The notes under the pieces: model-generated
What the model was told of the DNA's origin: nothing
What the model saw: only the letters and a program-made list of their open reading frames with translations
Database searches by the model: none
Assembly: GCF_029873215.1 (NCBI RefSeq)
Contig: NZ_CP123620.1
Span: forward strand, 62,001-126,000
Reading direction: 5' to 3'
Length of the DNA: 64,000 nt
Origin: Nocardioides sp. BP30
GTDB taxonomy: Bacteria; Actinomycetota; Actinomycetes; Propionibacteriales; Nocardioidaceae
Program-made: the position numbers and the translations under genes
Shown: piece by piece, positions 5,817 to 28,729 of the stretch
How positions within the stretch are numbered: position 1 is the first letter of the stretch
Layout: every line of letters starts with the position of its first letter

Positions 5817-6242
5817 TCAAGCGGCGGGATGGCCGAGAAGATGCTGCTTGACCAGCGACATGTCCTCCTGGAGCGGTCGGAGGTGAGCCTCGGTCAGGCT
5901 CGCCAGCGCGTCGATCTTCGCCTCCAGCCGGTGCTCCACGCCGCCGATCTTCGCCTCCAGCCGCTGCTCCACGCCATCGATCTTCGCGTCCAGCCGCTGC
6001 TCCACGCCATCGATCTTCGCCTCCAGCCGCTGCTCCACGCCGCCGATCTTCGCGTCCAGCCGCTGCTCCACGCCATCGATCTTCACGTCCAGCCGCTGCT
6101 CCACGCCATCGATGCGATCGTCGAGGCTGTCGAACCGAGCGTCGAAGCGTGAGTTCAGGGCACGCCAGAACATCCCCAGCAGCGTGCCGACGCCGACCAG
6201 GGTGCTCACGACGATCGTGATCGTCTGCGCCCAGGAGCCCAT
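5817..6242 (-). CDS. Membrane-anchored protein with six 11-residue coiled-coil repeats
   Basis: A 141-residue protein starting at ATG 6242 (MGSWAQTITI). Residues about 5-28 (AQTITIVVSTLVGVGTLLG) form a single membrane anchor. Residues 45-110 are six tandem copies of an 11-residue unit of the type DGVEQRLDAKI, with G for D and E for D in some copies, followed by a degenerate seventh unit and a C-terminal helix. An 11-residue (hendecad) period predicts a long, nearly untwisted coiled coil projecting from the membrane. It lies 61 bp after hspR on the same strand, so it may sit at the end of the heat-shock transcript. No function is recognised. Confidence 0.75.
   Translation of the reverse strand: MGSWAQTITIVVSTLVGVGTLLGMFWRALNSRFDARFDSLDDRIDGVEQRLDVKIDGVEQRLDAKIGGVEQRLEAKIDGVEQRLDAKIDGVEQRLEAKIGGVEHRLEAKIDALASLTEAHLRPLQEDMSLVKQHLLGHPAA
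5913..6110 (-). repeat. Six in-frame 33-bp tandem repeats
   Basis: Six 33-bp units encode the 11-residue hendecads of the coiled-coil protein at 5817-6242. Neighbouring units are nearly identical at DNA level (the units differ mainly at GCG/GTG, GAC/GAG and GAT/GGC codons), which suggests recent duplication and makes copy number variation likely. Confidence 0.85.
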
Positions 6243-6303
6243 GGGCTCAGGATAGGTGAGCAGCCGGCGAGGCGGGACCGACCGGGATCGGGCTGTGGAG
6301 AAC

Positions 6304-6761
6304 TCAGCGACCCCGGCGCCAGACGACGACCGACTGGCCCACCTCGGGCGGCCGGATGGCCGGGACCCGGGAAGCCGGCGGCGACGTCCGGCGTACGGCG
6401 ACCGCCTCGCGCAGCGCGTCGCGCGTCGCGGCCAGCTCGGCGGCGAGCTCCTCGTTGCGCGCCGACAGGGCCTCGACCTTGTTCTCCAGCTCGAGGATCC
6501 GGCGTACGCCCTCGATGCCGATCCCGGACCCGGTGAGGTCGGCGATGGTGCGCAGCAGCTCGATGTCGCGGTGCGAGTAGCGCCGACCACCGCCGCCGGT
6601 GCGTCCGGGCGTGATGAGGCCCATCCGCTCGTAGGTGCGCAGGGTCTGCGGGTGCAGCCCGGTCAGCTCGGCCGCCACCGAGATGACATAGACGGCCGCG
6701 TCGGGCGCAGGGGCGGGGGCCACCGGCCGACCGCCACCGTAGGAGGGGACGCGGGCGCTCA

Positions 6762-13882: not shown

Positions 13883-14809
13883 TCACACCCGCTCGATGCT
13901 CTCGATCTCGTGCTGCAGCGCCACCTGGTCGCGGACGGCGCGACACGTCAGCGCGACCGGGACGGAGTGGGTGCTGCGCACCCGCACGACGTACCCCTGC
14001 CCGTCGTGGGCGAAGGTCGCGTCGGTGACCAGCCCCGAACTCCTCGCATCGCCGGTCTGCACTCGGGCGGCCAGACGGATTCCACCGGGCGTGGACAGAC
14101 CGAGGTGGCGGCGCAGGGCTATCTCGGCGGCCTGGACCGGCATCGGATAGCAGCTGCGCCCCCGTAGGTGGTCGAGCTCGAGCTCGCCGGCGACGCGGGC
14201 CCTGGCGACGGCGACGGCGGACTCCGGATCGAGCCGGCCGTAGTAGAAGCCGTCCGGGGCCACGAGCATGTTCGCGGCGAACCGATCGCCGCCGAGGTGG
14301 GAGACCTCCCAGGTGTGCTCGGGCAGCGCACGTGCCAGCGCGGCGGCGACCGGGCGCCCACGCTCGGCACAGCAGGCGTCGTGGCGGCCGTGGGTGCAGA
14401 CGGCGAACACCGGCTCACCGTGCGCCTCCAACCCCAGCGACCGGCCCGCCCGGAGGGCGGCGAGATCCAGGTCGAGCACCTCGCGCGGGTCGCCCAGCCG
14501 CGCTGTCTCCGTCCAGGAGTACGGCGCTCGCGCGTGCACGGCGAAGATCCGGCGCGTCGACCGCTCCGGCTCACCGGCCGTGGTCGGGGTGCGGCCCGGG
14601 CGGCGGATCAGCAGCAACCGGACCCCGGCCGCCTGGGCGTGTGCGCGCAGCTCCTCGCCGACGCCGTCGGGCAATCGGGCATCGCGCAGCGCGTTCACCC
14701 CCCACGGGCCAGGGTGCTCCAGCAGCAGGAAGGCGGACACGGTCGAGGCGCTGCCGGCCAGGCTCTCGGTCCGAGCCTCACTGGCGGCCGAGCAGCGGAA
14801 CTCGCTCAG
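13883..14809 (-). CDS. Suc_Fer (sucrase/ferredoxin-like) thioredoxin-fold protein
   Basis: Probable [2Fe-2S] protein of the Suc_Fer family (relatives of yeast Apd1/Aim32). The motif CTHGRHDACC gives C-x8-C, the spacing of the cluster cysteines in that family, followed by SHLGGDRFAAN, where Apd1 has HxGGH; here the second histidine position is Asp. The first canonical start is GTG 14740, but the frame continues upstream as LSEFRCSAASEARTESLAGS, which looks like the normal family N-terminus, so I place the start at CTG 14809, overlapping the stop of the JmjC gene as CTGA. That gives 308 residues. It probably supplies electrons to or acts with the adjacent oxygenase; this is inferred from context. 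Confidence 0.8.
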   Translation of the reverse strand: MSEFRCSAASEARTESLAGSASTVSAFLLLEHPGPWGVNALRDARLPDGVGEELRAHAQAAGVRLLLIRRPGRTPTTAGEPERSTRRIFAVHARAPYSWTETARLGDPREVLDLDLAALRAGRSLGLEAHGEPVFAVCTHGRHDACCAERGRPVAAALARALPEHTWEVSHLGGDRFAANMLVAPDGFYYGRLDPESAVAVARARVAGELELDHLRGRSCYPMPVQAAEIALRRHLGLSTPGGIRLAARVQTGDARSSGLVTDATFAHDGQGYVVRVRSTHSVPVALTCRAVRDQVALQHEIESIERV

Positions 14810-15927
14810 CGCGCCACCTCGAGCATCCCCTCACGGACCAGCCGTCGGCACAGCACGAGCCGGCTCTGCTCGTCGAGTCCCAGCTCCGCGGGCGCGAACC
14901 TGGCTGCGGCCCGGATCTGCTCCAGCGCCGGCCGGGTGAAGGCCGGCAGGGTGAGCACGCGGTCGCCGAGCAGCACCTCGAGCCGGTCGCCGTCCACCTC
15001 GCGCAGCACGCAGGGCCGACCGGGCCGGCGGCGCAGCGCGGTGTCGTCGGCGATCTCGGTGACGGCGTCGAGGAGGCCGCCGGCGAAGCGCGGGGTGCGC
15101 GCGGTCAGGAACCGGCGTACCTCCGCCTCGGCCGCCTGCTGCGCGTCCACGGCCTCGATCCGGTCCGCCAGCTCGCGCAGGCGCCTGGCCAGGCCCGTCT
15201 GGAGCACGGCCGGCTCCTCGAGGTAGCCGGCCGGCAGGTGCTCGTCAGGGGGCAGGACACCCTCGACCGTACGGCGCAGCAGTCCGCGCCACGTCAGCTG
15301 GTTGATCCCGATGGTGACGTGCAGCGAGACCGTCTGCTGGGTCCGCGCCGCGTGCGGCGTGCCCGTCGGGAGGTAGAGCGAGAGACCGGGCGCCATCGTG
15401 ATCGCCTCGACGGTCGGACCGGCGTCGCGGGAGGTGGTGATCTCCCAGTCCTTGGTCCCGGCCGTCTGGAAGACGAAGACGTCGTGGGTGTCGCTGTGCA
15501 CCGCGAACCCTTGGGAGCCCGGCGGCGTCAGGTAGGCGTTGGCCTGGCAGGGATGCCCCAGCTCCAGCTCGAGCTCGGCGACGAGGTCGGCGAGGGGCTG
15601 GTGGTAGCGGTGCAGACCCTGGAAGACGATGGTGGCGCCCTCACGGAACAGCGCCAGCGCCTTCGCCGGGTCGACCAGGCCGCTGAGCTGCTGGCCGGCG
15701 ATGGTGGCGTGCCGGGTGAACCGCTTCTCGGGCAGGACGCTGCCGTCGCGCGCGATCCGCAGCGCGGGCGTGCGTAGCGCCGAGGAGGTCAGGAGCCTGT
15801 CGGCGTCCTCCAGCGAGAGCAGCCCCACCAGCGCGGCGGGGTCGGTGTGGTGCAGGTGCGTGCGGGACGCCCAGATCTTCTCGGTGAAGAGCCGGGCGTC
15901 CCCACTCAGCAGGTCGAGCGCGCTCAG
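14806..15927 (-). CDS. JmjC / cupin_4 (ribosomal-oxygenase type) dioxygenase
   Basis: Likely Fe(II)/2-oxoglutarate oxygenase of the cupin_4 (JmjC_2) family; known members such as E. coli RoxA/YcfD and human MINA53/NO66 hydroxylate residues in ribosomal proteins. The facial triad is visible: HSD (His144, Asp146 in the extended numbering) in AVHSDTHDVFVFQ and His192 in LPTGTPHAART; Lys in QTAGTKDWE is near the usual co-substrate site. The C-terminal half has the dimer and winged-helix-like regions. The first canonical start is GTG 15828, but the upstream frame LSALDLLSGDARLFTEKIWA is clearly the missing N-terminal helix, so CTG 15927 (CTGA overlap with the peptide gene stop) is preferred, giving 373 residues. 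Coupling to the peptide gene suggests that peptide as substrate. Confidence 0.82.
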   Translation of the reverse strand: MSALDLLSGDARLFTEKIWASRTHLHHTDPAALVGLLSLEDADRLLTSSALRTPALRIARDGSVLPEKRFTRHATIAGQQLSGLVDPAKALALFREGATIVFQGLHRYHQPLADLVAELELELGHPCQANAYLTPPGSQGFAVHSDTHDVFVFQTAGTKDWEITTSRDAGPTVEAITMAPGLSLYLPTGTPHAARTQQTVSLHVTIGINQLTWRGLLRRTVEGVLPPDEHLPAGYLEEPAVLQTGLARRLRELADRIEAVDAQQAAEAEVRRFLTARTPRFAGGLLDAVTEIADDTALRRRPGRPCVLREVDGDRLEVLLGDRVLTLPAFTRPALEQIRAAARFAPAELGLDEQSRLVLCRRLVREGMLEVAR

Positions 15928-16253
15928 GACAGGCCGCCCGCTGCGCCGTCGGTGCCGTCGGTGCCGTCGGTGCCGTCGCCGTCGGTGCCGTCGCCGTCGG
16001 TGCCGTCCGTGCCGTCGCCGTCGGTCCCGTCGCCGTCGGTGCCATCGGTGCCGTCGCCGTCGGTCCCGTCGCCGTCGGTGCCGTCCGTGCCGTCGCCGTC
16101 GGTGCCGTCCGTGCCGTCGCCGTCAGTGCCGTCGGTGCCGTCGCCGTCGGTGCCGTCGCCGTCGCTGCCACCCGGCTGGGCCGTGACGGCGGGGCTGCTG
16201 GCCGTCGTGGTGATGTCCTCGTCAGTGAGCGACTCGGCGGGAAGATCGGTCAT
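15924..16253 (-). CDS. Small peptide with Asp-Gly-Thr repeat tail (candidate modified-peptide precursor)
   Basis: A 109-residue protein from ATG 16253, with GGAGG placed 6 nt upstream. Residues 1-30 (MTDLPAESLTDEDITTTASS, then PAVTAQPGGS) look like a leader: acidic, Thr-rich and ending in Gly-Gly-Ser. Residues 31-103 consist only of 11 DG and 17 DGT units, giving 28 Asp, 28 Gly and 17 Thr in 73 residues, followed by AAGGLS. No signal peptide, membrane segment or cysteine is present. Its stop overlaps the JmjC oxygenase frame (CTGA) and the Suc_Fer gene follows. I infer a RiPP-like precursor whose Asp or Thr residues are hydroxylated; a metal-binding acidic repeat protein is the alternative. 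RTX and EF-hand consensus patterns do not fit. Confidence 0.7.
   Translation of the reverse strand: MTDLPAESLTDEDITTTASSPAVTAQPGGSDGDGTDGDGTDGTDGDGTDGTDGDGTDGTDGDGTDGDGTDGTDGDGTDGDGTDGTDGDGTDGDGTDGTDGTDGAAGGLS
15945..16163 (-). repeat. In-frame 6/9-bp tandem repeat array (DG and DGT codons)
   Basis: A 219-bp array built from GACGGC (DG) and GACGGCACC (DGT) units, almost all using identical codons. Uniform codons indicate expansion at DNA level by slippage or recombination. The order of units is irregular, with DGT-DGT-DG and DGT-DG alternating. Confidence 0.92.
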
Positions 16254-16373
16254 GGCTGCCTCCAAGCAGGTCGGTGGGTTGATCGAGAGGTTGTCCGCTT
16301 GCGACGGTACCCACCCGGGCATACGCACACACGCGCGCCCATGCCCGGGAGCGGGATGCGGCATGCTGCGGTC

Positions 16374-16976
16374 ATGGAGTTCCAGGACGTGGTACGCCGC
16401 CGCAAGATGGTGCGCCGATACACCGACCAGCCCGTTGCTCCCGAGCAGGTGGAGCGGGTGCTGAGCAACGCCGTACGCGCCCCGAACGCCGGCTTCTCGC
16501 AGGGGTGGTCGTTCCTGGTGCTCGACACTCCGGCCGACACCGCGCGCTACTGGGACCTCTTCGTCGGCGACGAGGAGTGGGAGGCCGACAGCTGGCTGCG
16601 CGGGATGCGCACCGCTCCGGTGCTGATCCTGCCCTGCTCGTCGAAGGCCGCCTACCTGAGCCGCTACGCGCAGAGCGACAAGGGCTGGACCGACGAGGAC
16701 GAGGCCCGCTGGCCGATGCCCTACTGGCACATGGACACCGCGATGGCGGTGATGCTGATGCTCCAGACCGTCGTCGACGAGGGGCTCGGCGCCTGCTACT
16801 TCGGCATCCCGCCGCGACACGAGACCCAGGTGCGCGAGACCTTCGGCATCCCGGAGGCCTGGGATCCGATCGGGGTCGTCTCGATCGGCCATCCCGATGG
16901 CGGCGGCGCGAAGGGATCCCCCAGCCGTCGCCGGCGGATCCCGATGTCCGAGGTGGTCCACCACGGCCGGTGGTGA
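16374..16976 (+). CDS. Nitroreductase family protein
   Basis: FMN-dependent NAD(P)H oxidoreductase of the nitroreductase fold. ATG 16374 (MEFQDVVRRRKMVRRY) gives 200 residues; longer upstream starts would add a non-homologous basic stretch. The RRRKMVRRYTDQPV motif binds FMN phosphate, NAVRAPNAGFSQGWSF matches the conserved R-AP-A-NxQPW-like region, and EGLGACYFGIP the glycine-rich C-terminal flavin contact. Substrate unknown. It is divergent from the DGT-peptide operon with 120 bp between the starts, so a regulatory link is possible but unproven. CATGCT 6 nt upstream of ATG may be a leaderless -10. Confidence 0.88.
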   Translation: MEFQDVVRRRKMVRRYTDQPVAPEQVERVLSNAVRAPNAGFSQGWSFLVLDTPADTARYWDLFVGDEEWEADSWLRGMRTAPVLILPCSSKAAYLSRYAQSDKGWTDEDEARWPMPYWHMDTAMAVMLMLQTVVDEGLGACYFGIPPRHETQVRETFGIPEAWDPIGVVSIGHPDGGGAKGSPSRRRRIPMSEVVHHGRW

Positions 16977-25114: not shown

Positions 25115-28100
25115 ATGCTGCAGACCATCGCAATCGTCGTGGCGCTCGTCCTGACTGTCGTCACCGCCGTCGTCGTGGTGAAGGCACTCCGGTCCATGCT
25201 CGGCGTCCTCAGGGTGGGTCAGCCCGCCATCGGCCGCACCGACCACCCCGCGAGCCGGTGGGCGACCATGCTCAAGGAGACGTTCGGGCACACCCGGATG
25301 TTCCAGTGGCGCTGGGTCGGCGTCATGCATTGGTTCGTGTACTTCGGCTTCCTGATCCTGGCCACCGCCGTGGCGACCGGCTTCGTGCAGCTCTTCGACC
25401 CGAAGTGGCAGATCCCGATCATCGGGCACTGGTTCGTCTACGAGTGGATCTGCGAGGGCATCGGCGTCCTGTCCACTGTCGGCATCATCTTCTTGATCGT
25501 CTACCGCCAGCTGCACATGCCCAAGGCGTTGGGCCGCCGGAGCCGGTTCTTCGGCTCGACGTTCTGGCAGGCCTACTTCGTCGAGTTCATGGCGCTGCTG
25601 GAGGGTGCGGCGATCCTGTTCATCCGCGGCGCCGAGCACCGGTGGGACCACCTCAAGGGCGAGACCGGCGGCCACGCCAGCACCTTCCACTTCCCGATCT
25701 CGCACCTGCTTTCCGGCATGTACGGCGACACGCCGCACACCGCCCGCAACTGGGTGATCGTGATCGCCTTCATCAAGGTCGCATCGGCCCTGGCCTGGCT
25801 GATCGTGGTCGCGCTGAACCTGACCATGGGCATTGCCTGGCACCGCTTCACCGCCTGGTTCAACATCTACTTCAAGCGTGAGTCGCAGGGTCGCGACACC
25901 GACGGCGCCACCACCGCGCTCGGTGCGATGAAGCCGCTGACGTCGAACGGCAAGGCGATCACCCTCGACGACATCGACGACCTCGACGAGGACGCCAAGC
26001 TCGGCGTGGGCACGATCGAGGACTTCTCCTGGAAGGGCATCCTCGACTTCACCACCTGCACCGAGTGCGGTCGCTGCCAGTCACAGTGCCCCGCCTGGAA
26101 CACCGAGAAGCCGCTCTCGCCCAAGCACCTGGTGATGAGCCTGCGCGAGCACGCGTACGCCTCCGCGCCGTACCTGGAGGGCGGTGCGGAGCGACGTGAG
26201 CTGCCGCTGGTCGGCAAGACCGACGCCGACCCCTCGCTCGGCGAGGGTGAGGAGGTCCTCGACTGGTTCTACAACCCCGACGCCGAGCACGGCGGTGGCG
26301 GATTCGTCATCGACGAGGACGTGCTGTGGTCGTGCACCTCGTGTGGGGCATGCGTGCAGCAGTGCCCGGTCGACATCGAGCACGTCGACCACATCATGGA
26401 CATGCGCCGCTACCAGGTGCTGGTCGAGTCGAACTTCCCCTCCGAGCTCAACGGGCTGTTCAAGGGCCTGGAGAACAAGGGCAATCCGTGGAACATGTCC
26501 CCGAACGCGCGGCTGGACTGGGCCAAGGACCTGCCCTTCGACGTCAAGGTCGTCGGTGAGGACCTCGAGTCGCTGGAGTCGGTCGACTGGCTGTTCTGGG
26601 TGGGTTGCGCCGGCGCCTACGAGGACCGCGCGAAGAAGACCACCCGGGCCGTCGCCGAGCTCCTCGACACCGCCGGGATCTCCTTCGGCGTGCTCGGCAA
26701 CGGAGAGACCTGTACCGGTGACCCGGCCCGCCGTGCGGGCAACGAGTTCGTCTTCCAGGGCCTCGCGCAGCAGAACGTGGAGACGTTCAAGGAGTTCAAG
26801 GTCAAGAAGGCCGTGACGACCTGTGCGCACTGCTTCAACACCTTGAAGAACGAGTACAAGCAGTTCGGCATCGAGCTCGAGGTCGTCCACCACACCCAGC
26901 TGCTCAACCGGCTCGTGCGCGAGGGCAAGCTGACCCCCGTCGCCGACGGCGCCGGCGCGCACAAGCGCTCCATCACCTACCACGACCCCTGCTACATCGG
27001 CCGGCACAACGGCGTCTACACCCCACCACGCGAGCTCCTCCAGGTGCTGCCCGGAGCGGAGTACGTCGAGATGCCGCGCAACTCCGAGCGCTCCTTCTGC
27101 TGCGGTGCCGGCGGCGCCCGGATGTGGATGGAGGAGAAGATCGGCCAGCGGATCAACCGCAACCGCACCGACGAGGCCGTGGGCACCGGGGCCGACCAGA
27201 TCGCTGTCGGCTGTCCGTTCTGCCGTGTGATGCTCTCCGACGGTCTCACCGCCGCGCAGGCCGACGGTACGGCGCGGGAGTCGGTCGAGGTGCTCGACGT
27301 CGCGCAGATGCTGCTCGCCTCGGTCAAGGGCGAGCAGGCCACCAAGCTGCTGCCCGGCGAGGGCGCCCCCGCTGGTGCGCCCGCGGCCCCGGCCGCGAAG
27401 AAGGCCGACGTGGCAACGAAGGCCGAACCGTCTCCGGGCGATGTGACAGTCACCGAGAACACGATCACCGAGACCGCCGACGCGGGTCCGGCCGCGAAGG
27501 CCAGCCAGGGTGCCGGGGGCGGCTCCTCGCTCTTCGATGAGGCGCCGGCCCAGGAGGCTGCTCAGGAGACTGCTCAGCCGGCTGCCGAGGCGGCTACTCC
27601 TGCGGCTCCGGCTTCCGGGGGGTCGCTGTTCGACAACCCGTCGTCGCTGTTCGACACGCCGGCGAAGGCTCCTGAATCGGCGCCGGCCCCGGCCGAGCCC
27701 GCAGCAGGCACAGCGGCGGAGCCGGCAGGGTCGGGGGGATCGTCGCTCTTCGACATCCCCGCGACGAAGCCGGCCCCGGCCGCCGCTTCGCCGAAGCCGG
27801 CGGAGGCGACGGAGGCAGCGCCCGCGGCGGACCTCGGTTCGGGCGGCTCGCTGTTCGACGTACCTGCCACCGCTCCCGCAGGGACCGAGCCCGCCCCGGC
27901 CGCCGCTGCACCGCAGGCCCCGGCTCCGCAGGCACCCGCCACCGAGGACACGGCTGCCCCGGCTGCCCCGGCGAACCCTGCGGTCGACCTCAACGCGGGC
28001 GGCTCGCTGTTCGACATCCCGGTCCAGGCTCCGGCAGCGGCCGCGTCACCTGCCGCGACCCCGGCACCCGCTGCCACCGAGCCGGCCGAGGCACCGCAGG

Positions 28101-28729
28101 CCGCGGCCCCGCAGGCACCCGCCACCGAGAACACGGCGGCCCCGGCGTCCCCGGCGGCCCCGGCGGTCGACCTCAATGCGGGCGGCTCCCTGTTCGACAT
28201 CCCGGCGACGCCGGCGTCCCCGTCGGCGGCCACCGCTGCTCCCGCAGCGGCGGAGCCCGAGCCGAGCACGGTCGCCGCAGAGCCGAGCAAGCCCGAGCCC
28301 GAGCCCGAGCCGAGCAAGCCCGAGCCCTCGACCGCCGCCCCGGCCGGGTCCGCCAGCTCCGGCGCCGCACACTCGCCGCGATCCGACGTCGCGATCGAGG
28401 GGGTGTCCTCGCTGTTCGACATCGAGGCCCCGGCGCCCACCGTGGTCGCGCCGCCGGCCACGGCAACCGCGGCCGCATCGGCACCCGCGGAGGAAGCAGC
28501 AGAGGAAGCACCGGCTGAGGAAGCACCGGCTGAGGAAGCACCGGCTGAGGAAGCACCGGCTGAGGAAGCACCGGCTGAGGAAGCCGTCGGTCGGGCGGAC
28601 CCCGAGCCGGCGCCCGACCCCGAGCCGGCGGCTCAGAAGCAGGCCACGCCGCCGGCTGCTTCGGGAGCGACCAACACCCCGCGCACCGACGCGGACATCC
28701 ACGGGGCCGGATCGCTCTTCGACCTCTGA
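25115..28729 (+). CDS. etfD: EtfD-type membrane iron-sulfur reductase with long SLFD-repeat tail
   Basis: Heterodisulfide-reductase-like protein resembling mycobacterial EtfD (Rv0338c), which passes electrons from ETF to the quinone pool during beta-oxidation. ATG 25115 follows AAGGAGG. Residues 1-250 hold about five membrane helices of the nitrate-reductase-gamma type; CTECGRCQSQCP (about 315) and CTSCGACVQQCP (about 407) bind two [4Fe-4S] clusters; two CCG domains follow (CAHCFN, DPCYIGRHN, FCCGAGGARMW). The catalytic part ends near 765. Residues 770-1204 are a Pro/Ala/Glu-rich tail with nine SLFD motifs (starting at 805, 837, 844, 877, 912, 964, 1025, 1099 and 1200), the last being the C-terminus SLFDL. 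The tail makes it longer than the roughly 880 residues I recall for mycobacterial EtfD. Confidence 0.9.
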   Translation: MLQTIAIVVALVLTVVTAVVVVKALRSMLGVLRVGQPAIGRTDHPASRWATMLKETFGHTRMFQWRWVGVMHWFVYFGFLILATAVATGFVQLFDPKWQIPIIGHWFVYEWICEGIGVLSTVGIIFLIVYRQLHMPKALGRRSRFFGSTFWQAYFVEFMALLEGAAILFIRGAEHRWDHLKGETGGHASTFHFPISHLLSGMYGDTPHTARNWVIVIAFIKVASALAWLIVVALNLTMGIAWHRFTAWFNIYFKRESQGRDTDGATTALGAMKPLTSNGKAITLDDIDDLDEDAKLGVGTIEDFSWKGILDFTTCTECGRCQSQCPAWNTEKPLSPKHLVMSLREHAYASAPYLEGGAERRELPLVGKTDADPSLGEGEEVLDWFYNPDAEHGGGGFVIDEDVLWSCTSCGACVQQCPVDIEHVDHIMDMRRYQVLVESNFPSELNGLFKGLENKGNPWNMSPNARLDWAKDLPFDVKVVGEDLESLESVDWLFWVGCAGAYEDRAKKTTRAVAELLDTAGISFGVLGNGETCTGDPARRAGNEFVFQGLAQQNVETFKEFKVKKAVTTCAHCFNTLKNEYKQFGIELEVVHHTQLLNRLVREGKLTPVADGAGAHKRSITYHDPCYIGRHNGVYTPPRELLQVLPGAEYVEMPRNSERSFCCGAGGARMWMEEKIGQRINRNRTDEAVGTGADQIAVGCPFCRVMLSDGLTAAQADGTARESVEVLDVAQMLLASVKGEQATKLLPGEGAPAGAPAAPAAKKADVATKAEPSPGDVTVTENTITETADAGPAAKASQGAGGGSSLFDEAPAQEAAQETAQPAAEAATPAAPASGGSLFDNPSSLFDTPAKAPESAPAPAEPAAGTAAEPAGSGGSSLFDIPATKPAPAAASPKPAEATEAAPAADLGSGGSLFDVPATAPAGTEPAPAAAAPQAPAPQAPATEDTAAPAAPANPAVDLNAGGSLFDIPVQAPAAAASPAATPAPAATEPAEAPQAAAPQAPATENTAAPASPAAPAVDLNAGGSLFDIPATPASPSAATAAPAAAEPEPSTVAAEPSKPEPEPEPSKPEPSTAAPAGSASSGAAHSPRSDVAIEGVSSLFDIEAPAPTVVAPPATATAAASAPAEEAAEEAPAEEAPAEEAPAEEAPAEEAPAEEAVGRADPEPAPDPEPAAQKQATPPAASGATNTPRTDADIHGAGSLFDL
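28502..28576 (+). repeat. Five perfect 15-bp tandem repeats in etfD
   Basis: GAGGAAGCACCGGCT repeated five times without a mismatch, encoding EEAPA units in the tail of EtfD. It uses GAA and GCA codons that are otherwise rare in this GC-rich gene, which indicates very recent expansion. Confidence 0.95.

Follow-up and report, generated by a model that had tools for sequence, protein, structure and literature searches.

Why is a peptide that consists largely of Asp-Gly units encoded directly in front of an oxygenase gene, and what could the enzyme do to it? This question is raised by a locus of Nocardioides sp. BP30, which lies in a stretch of 64,000 nucleotides (contig NZ_CP123620.1, positions 62,001 to 126,000) that is called the window here and whose numbering is used for all coordinates. 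A trio of genes on the minus strand, running end to end from 16253 to 13883, encodes the repeat peptide, a JmjC_2 oxygenase and a Suc_Fer protein, in this order. Our preferred answer, to which we assign a probability of roughly 60%, is that the trio is a translationally coupled cassette that modifies a peptide of the RiPP kind (ribosomally synthesised and post-translationally modified peptide), and that the JmjC enzyme would β-hydroxylate the Asp residues of the repeat. What the data establish is that the genes exist and are conserved, that peptide and enzyme are linked in both directions, that the active-site residues are retained, and that enzyme type and core type are inherited together. 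The repeat peptide is very probably the substrate of the JmjC protein, and β-hydroxylation of Asp would probably be the main reaction.

The 109-residue peptide (15924..16253, minus strand as all features of the trio; ATG start, TGA stop) is the presumed precursor or substrate and has homologous peptides in relatives. Its 30 N-terminal residues (MTDLPAESLTDEDITTTASSPAVTAQPGGS; 16164..16253) resemble a leader and include the motif L-T-D-E-D-I-T-T at residues 9–16 (16206..16229). They are followed by a core of 73 residues (31–103; 15945..16163), which translates into DG and DGT units only (28 Asp, 28 Gly, 17 Thr), and then by AAGGLS. The core array reached a score of 303 in Tandem Repeats Finder. 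The peptide has a charge of −33 and contains neither Arg nor Lys. Since 7 of the 72 core codons are synonymous variants, the reading frame of the array has been kept.

A first-pass annotation, made from the letters alone, had described this 30-residue start and 73-residue core and had noted that the stop codons of the first two frames overlap the next frame. Translation confirmed both observations, each junction being a CTGA in which the stop of the preceding frame is shared with the following one (peptide/JmjC, 15924..15927; JmjC/Suc_Fer, 14806..14809). Read from these CTG codons, the JmjC protein has 373 aa (14806..15927) and the Suc_Fer protein 308 aa (13883..14809). ATG, GTG and TTG are absent at the conserved N-terminus of both frames, so that the CTG codons are the only plausible starts in the reading frames, and initiation at these codons, with coupling to the stop of the gene before, is likely; a frameshift fusion is a possible alternative. 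Among the 17 loci of the genus with a DGT-type core (see below), the JmjC start lacks ATG, GTG and TTG in six (L001, L002, L014–L017) and is GTG or ATG in the other 11. Where the window has the CTGA before Suc_Fer, GTGA or ATGA is found in relatives (e.g., L003, L006).

Loci for comparison were taken from a related-genome set of 58 genomes (JmjC matches in 32; 30 loci fetched), from a named-genome scan that yielded at least 578 relatives, of which the best 80 were kept, and from a sample of 396 genomes of the phylum Actinomycetota (69 places taken as loci; the short fragment G348:C232 was left out). The relatives kept from the named-genome scan span Kribbella, Pseudonocardia, Actinokineospora, Umezawaea, Saccharopolyspora and Actinomycetospora, among others, and also Modestobacter, Blastococcus, Geodermatophilus, Motilibacter and Virgisporangium. 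In the phylum sample, 63 of the 396 genomes gave a JmjC match, and 55 of the 63 fall into the repeat-peptide branch. The total was 179 locus records, of which 166 scored at least 220 bits against the family model and are referred to as family loci, a limit chosen after inspection of the score distribution; L031–L033, L183 and L184 do not enter the counts. Two of the locus collections have loci in common (the window is represented by L001 and again by L115), and counts therefore refer to locus records, not to independent genomes.

An Asp/Gly-rich open reading frame (ORF) was present upstream of the JmjC gene and on the same strand in all 30 loci fetched from the related genomes. A strict composition detector found the peptide at 136 of the 166 family loci and in 15 of 1657 control windows, which were taken from the same loci. 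Direct reading of the 30 family loci missed by this detector revealed an Asp-rich peptide at 24 of them (L020, L022, L023, L028, L037, L038, L049, L054, L055, L063, L068, L071, L077, L082, L083, L118–L122, L127, L132, L168, L172), and at four loci the upstream sequence is cut by a contig end (L061, L075, L145, L160). A short Asp-rich peptide is thus encoded on the same strand just upstream of the JmjC gene at 160 of the 162 family loci with upstream sequence, and a short encoded peptide beside a modifying enzyme is what one expects of a RiPP. Peptide start codons were also picked by an automatic procedure, with much noise and frequent false starts; these picks were excluded from all counts and served as a reading aid only. 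Because direct reading favours family loci, a symmetric repeat test (for a D-containing repeat) was run alike on all loci and controls. It was positive at 155 of the 162 family loci, at none of 13 distant JmjC_2 loci (below 220 bits) and in 17 of the 1657 controls. An adjacent Suc_Fer gene was likewise found at none of the 13 distant loci; at one of them (L181) the composition detector fires, on a stretch that is not repetitive.

The linkage was also seen in the reverse direction. A search of the 58 related genomes with a degenerate DGT-type array pattern gave 35 sites in 11 genomes, 33 of them at the cassette, and in the window's own genome all 9 sites lie inside the window array. Two array-like sites in genome G020 were ruled out as a cassette, with no JmjC or Suc_Fer match within 6 kb. 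Clusters of DGGADGGA (at least two sites within 1 kb) occur in 13 of the 58 genomes and always at the JmjC gene, and isolated sites elsewhere resemble background. A second JmjC_2 gene of the same genome as the window (2.8966 Mb, 28 bits) has no Asp-rich peptide within 7 kb. Peptide and JmjC gene are a conserved, reciprocal unit across Actinomycetota. A search for the gene arrangement across actinomycetes had been proposed in the first-pass annotation, which named JmjC-Suc_Fer pairs without a repeat peptide as the observation that would refute its pathway. This observation was not made: among the 147 JmjC loci with an adjacent Suc_Fer, a peptide is missing only at L061, L075 and L160, all cut by a contig end on that side. 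Many leaders share a motif, and the cores differ.

The leader motif, in general form L-x-D-[DE]-[DE]-[IM]-x-T, recurs across the deepest split of the family. It reads LTDEDITT in the window, LSDDDMTT in other Nocardioides, LNDDDMTT in Kribbella, LDDDDMT[TS] in Pseudonocardia and Modestobacter, and LTDADIET or LSDEDIQT in distant families, and a loose regular expression found it at 109 of 132 loci. The cores are built either of DGT, DGD and DAT units (DGT type) or of EGPADGGA...DGGADGGA units (DGGA type). A third kind, at L168 and L172, has a unit of about 22 residues (PTEDDENLDAPGEHSQDTGDE-like), present twice in tandem after a DNDIT leader, at loci without adjacent Suc_Fer. The mean Asp fraction was 0.31 for DGT-type and 0.17 (0.169) for DGGA-type cores; the mean Thr fraction was 0.145 versus 0.041 in 95 DGGA-type cores, 6 of them without any Thr, and the core slices used for these Thr values can take in the TT of the leader. 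As Asp is the common core residue and Thr is scarce in the DGGA type, core composition points to Asp, not Thr, as the common target of the oxygenase. Thr, which the first-pass annotation had considered alongside Asp, is thereby disfavoured as a general target.

Core type was found to go along with the enzyme. A tree was built from 67 of the 179 JmjC proteins; its rows with a DGGA core, 31 in number, make up one side of a branch with support of 100/99. The genus of the window holds both types (DGT at L001–L017; DGGA at L020, L021, L023, L024 and L028), so that core type goes with the enzyme rather than with the species, and the cassette seems to be transferred as a whole. The stretch from HxDxHDV to the distal His motif, that is the loop between the metal ligands, comprises 54–55 residues in 112 of 112 DGGA-type loci (L128 being counted here on one chance motif) and, among 47 DGT-type loci, 30–56 residues in the 42 that were measured (30–35 in 31 of these); this association of loop and core represents one deep split, not many independent events. 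The DGT-type JmjC of Nocardioides nests among distant families (L136 versus L001–L017), and other Nocardioides carry the DGGA type; this nesting suggests transfer of the whole cassette between families.

The window oxygenase, presumably an Fe(II)/2-oxoglutarate enzyme, matched JmjC_2 (PF08007, also known as cupin_4) with an E value of 6.8e-18. Its best profile match in the PDB was NO66 (4y4r, E 4.6e-44, profile positions 8–390, nearly the whole length), followed by MINA53 (2xdv, E 2.2e-34) and a YcfD-type L16 arginine hydroxylase (4lit, E 2.6e-15). The FIH-type enzymes invoked in the first-pass annotation gave way to a histidyl hydroxylase, NO66, as closest solved relative. H144, D146 and H192, assigned as iron ligands by alignment with NO66, and K159 between them (15352..15498) are invariant in 35 of 35 aligned sequences. 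The AlphaFold2 model of the protein (predicted local distance difference test score, pLDDT, 93.6) places helices at residues 239–275, where ribosomal oxygenases have their dimerisation helices, and a winged helix at 298–371 after the JmjC domain. This C-terminal domain (residues 297–373; 14809..15039) comprises strands 298–300, 307–310, 315–319 and 324–328 and then helices 329–340, 346–348 (short) and 353–365, as read from the DSSP string of the model. This is the strand-then-helix order by which, in the accessible text of PMC12710340, a RiPP recognition element is defined. Among the 120 of 3479 homologs listed, protein names included 'cupin', 'JmjC', 'NO66', 'mannose-6-phosphate isomerase-like' and 'L16 Arg81 hydroxylase'.

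The third gene encodes a thioredoxin-like ferredoxin (Suc_Fer-like, PF06999, E 1e-16; AlphaFold2 model with pLDDT 94.8). In the numbering of a 304-aa reading (14797..13886), its motif is C134-x8-C143...H167-x3-D171; the CX8C and the first His are invariant, and the last ligand position is Asp171 in at least 90% of 28 sequences. Suc_Fer is adjacent and on the same strand at 147 of the 166 family loci, and in the related genomes it was found downstream by tblastn at 29 of the 30 loci, L026 giving a weak match with a hidden Markov model. Of the 19 loci without an adjacent same-strand copy, two (L050, L150) lie at the end of a contig, and at L165 a copy is encoded nearby on the other strand. Ten such genomes were searched, and five of them (G384, G249, G300, G301, G386) hold no Suc_Fer anywhere at E values up to 0.001. 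Suc_Fer is a usual helper that is dispensable, since the adjacent copy is absent at some loci and half of the searched genomes have none. Suc_Fer, the redox partner proposed in the first-pass annotation, is therefore rejected as an obligatory partner of the oxygenase. Five loci (L008, L013, L015, L016, L017) have another Suc_Fer-like gene, which precedes the peptide gene in the same orientation (about 260–1150 of the re-oriented locus), and the cassette is flanked by two Suc_Fer genes. Genome G070 has two family JmjC genes: L137 comes with peptide and Suc_Fer, whereas at L145 the Asp-rich ORF is truncated and the roughly 2.5 kb downstream contain no Suc_Fer.

These data are consistent with the following mechanism. 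The peptide would be made with the short acidic leader motif, which the co-encoded JmjC protein would recognise, probably through its C-terminal winged helix. With Fe(II), 2-oxoglutarate and O2 the enzyme would then oxidise side chains along the repeat, most likely by β-hydroxylation of Asp. The [2Fe-2S] protein Suc_Fer may help, perhaps by keeping the iron of the enzyme reduced or supplied. The outcome would be a long Asp/Gly polypeptide, poly-hydroxylated and strongly anionic, that perhaps binds cations in the cytosol; its function (cation binding, stress buffering) is a guess.

Several points weigh against this proposal, the first being that we infer every chemical step in it. In 29 loci (flanks to about 6 kb, proteins of at least 110 aa), neither a protease nor an exporter family was seen repeatedly next to the unit, and the first-pass annotation had noted the same lack for the trio itself. 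L128 has a D-rich but non-repetitive ORF before the JmjC gene, the long-branch JmjC of L167 has neither peptide nor adjacent Suc_Fer, and five more Asp-rich peptides, short or little repeated, failed the repeat test (L068, L148, L162, L164, L165). With strict placement, within 37 residues round the core start, the leader motif was found in 69 of 140 cases (shuffled-sequence rate 0.015), and it is truly absent from some DGGA-type peptides (L020, L024, L116, L126). Ten C-terminal pieces of the JmjC protein gave no match to PqqD, the recognition-element family, in Pfam at E values up to 10. The winged helix is not specific to the peptide branch, because MINA, NO66 and YcfD have it in common, with a function that is unclear according to the accessible text of PMC6182338. 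The catalytic part of the enzyme is acidic (mean net charge −11 in 35 sequences) and the winged helix about neutral, which does not favour plain electrostatic attraction between the enzyme and a peptide with a charge of −33.

The closest solved relatives NO66, MINA and YcfD hydroxylate ribosomal proteins, and maturation genes do not recur near the unit, both of which would suit a peptide that is a disordered acidic adaptor or sensor bound by the JmjC protein, the real substrate being another protein, e.g. a ribosomal one. We regard this as unlikely: the leader motif recurs beside repeats that differ widely in unit and copy number, as expected of a substrate rather than a regulator, and core type goes with the loop between the metal ligands. 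Gene context also argues for the peptide rather than a ribosomal protein.

The same pairing could also serve another chemistry, with oxidation at a Gly or Ala carbon (backbone cleavage or amidation) or at Thr, or with the hydroxyl group as an intermediate of crosslinking or dehydration. Asp-Gly is chemically labile, and in 140 cores the residue after Asp is Gly in 1733 and Ala in 364 of 2918 cases, which makes Gly or Ala in this position nearly as regular as Asp itself. However, relatives act on side chains, at C-3 of His (PMC9994133) or on Arg in the case of YcfD (PMC6182338; in both cases as stated in the accessible text), and no second modifying enzyme except Suc_Fer recurs near the unit in the 29 loci; we consider such chemistry quite improbable. 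That the repeat is a GC-rich slippage product or a simple acidic linker without a function shared with its neighbours, as its GC-rich tandem array and varying unit number might suggest, was rejected as a highly improbable explanation on the basis of the composition-detector and repeat-test controls (for the latter 155/162 family loci versus 17/1657 controls and 0/13 distant loci), the reverse pattern search, the synonymous variants at 7 of 72 core codons with the frame kept, and the presence of two unit types and a third, 22-residue tandem type (L168, L172) at the same place.

Given Asp β-hydroxylation of the repeat as the preferred reading, a wider one is possible, which we put forward tentatively and with some doubt: NO66-type JmjC enzymes may form a phylum-wide undescribed class that poly-hydroxylates dozens of Asp residues in leader-recognised Asp-Gly/Ala repeats, giving an encoded, poly-3-hydroxyaspartate-like binder of cations. 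If so, the winged helix of ribosomal oxygenases would be a peptide-leader-binding domain, and NO66 and MINA may share ancestry with peptide-modifying bacterial enzymes. A dedicated oxygenase-peptide pair has been kept across many families of Actinomycetota, including the soil genera Nocardioides and Kribbella. If the peptide is poly-hydroxylated, the cell would have a genetically encoded polyanion that binds metal, and Asp hydroxylation would gain a new tool. Thanks to the repeat, this prediction lends itself unusually well to testing, by a ladder of +16 Da steps, and the winged-helix domain of ribosomal oxygenases would gain a testable role.

The surroundings of the trio comprise a divergent nitroreductase gene (16299..16976) and genes for an aldo/keto reductase, a protein with a DnaJ-C28 domain and a protein of 193 aa that, judged by eye, seems to have a membrane segment; we took these neighbours to be unrelated to the cassette. 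The only families found beside the unit in at least three genera among the 29 loci reflect Geodermatophilaceae synteny or belong to two scattered transporter-like groups. A defence system was considered and dropped, as PADLOC gave no match for the three window proteins. Elsewhere in the window, a 1204-aa protein (25115–28729, plus strand) has iron-sulphur-type cysteine motifs (by eye) and a long Ala/Pro-rich C-terminal tail with repeated GGSLFDxP and SSLFD motifs and a perfect 15-bp repeat at 28502–28584. A 257-aa ORF (5817–6590, minus strand) seems to contain a membrane segment, and a 33-bp array at 5911–6113 encodes its coiled-coil-like repeats of 11 residues (IDGVEQRLDAK).

How does the cassette compare with known systems? 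No name of its own was found for it in the NCBIfam, Pfam and PADLOC scans or among the homolog names listed. In the open-access literature (main texts, as far as accessible) we found no description of a peptide-JmjC-Suc_Fer cassette, only one general hint in PMC12710340, and it looks like an undescribed family of modified peptides. The accessible text of that paper reports folds of JmjC (PF08007) with a recognition-element-like domain in fish and algae and bacterial homologs (about 30% identity) 'in RiPP-like genomic contexts'; it names no peptide, repeat, leader motif, Suc_Fer partner or taxon for these.

NO66 (RIOX1), MINA53 and YcfD share with the window enzyme the aligned iron ligands and the C-terminal winged helix. 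They act on His or Arg of ribosomal proteins, whereas enzymes of the peptide branch share an operon with a repeat peptide, and their HxD is followed by an invariant H-D (HxDxHDV), where NO66 reads HYDDIEA. Apd1 and Aim32 belong, like the Suc_Fer protein, to PF06999, and the cluster motif given for Aim32 in the accessible text of PMC8482512 is CX8CXnHX3H. The protein described here has C-x8-C and then H in the same order, but the second His is replaced by Asp (H167-x3-D171), so that the bis-histidinyl pattern CX8C...HX3H does not apply to it.

The nearest parallel in peptide biosynthesis is found in biphenomycin-type RiPPs, in which BipG, BpmG and PbsQ (JmjC or related cupin proteins) hydroxylate ornithine in the precursors, according to the accessible text of PMC12707348 and PMC12257519. 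As here, a JmjC/cupin-type Fe(II)/2-oxoglutarate enzyme is encoded with a peptide, and its hydroxylation of the precursor has been shown there. Unlike here, the target is ornithine made by an arginase, and the cluster includes an MNIO, a radical SAM enzyme and a protease. No such partners recur beside the present cassette, and its presumed substrate is an Asp repeat. Hydroxylation of Asp in a RiPP is itself known from cinnamycin, in which CinX, an enzyme of a different family, acts on one Asp and not on dozens; our proposal would also give 3-hydroxyaspartate in a ribosomal peptide. As a RiPP-like pair of oxygenase and peptide, the cassette is of a known kind, but there is a real chance that it represents a class of its own.

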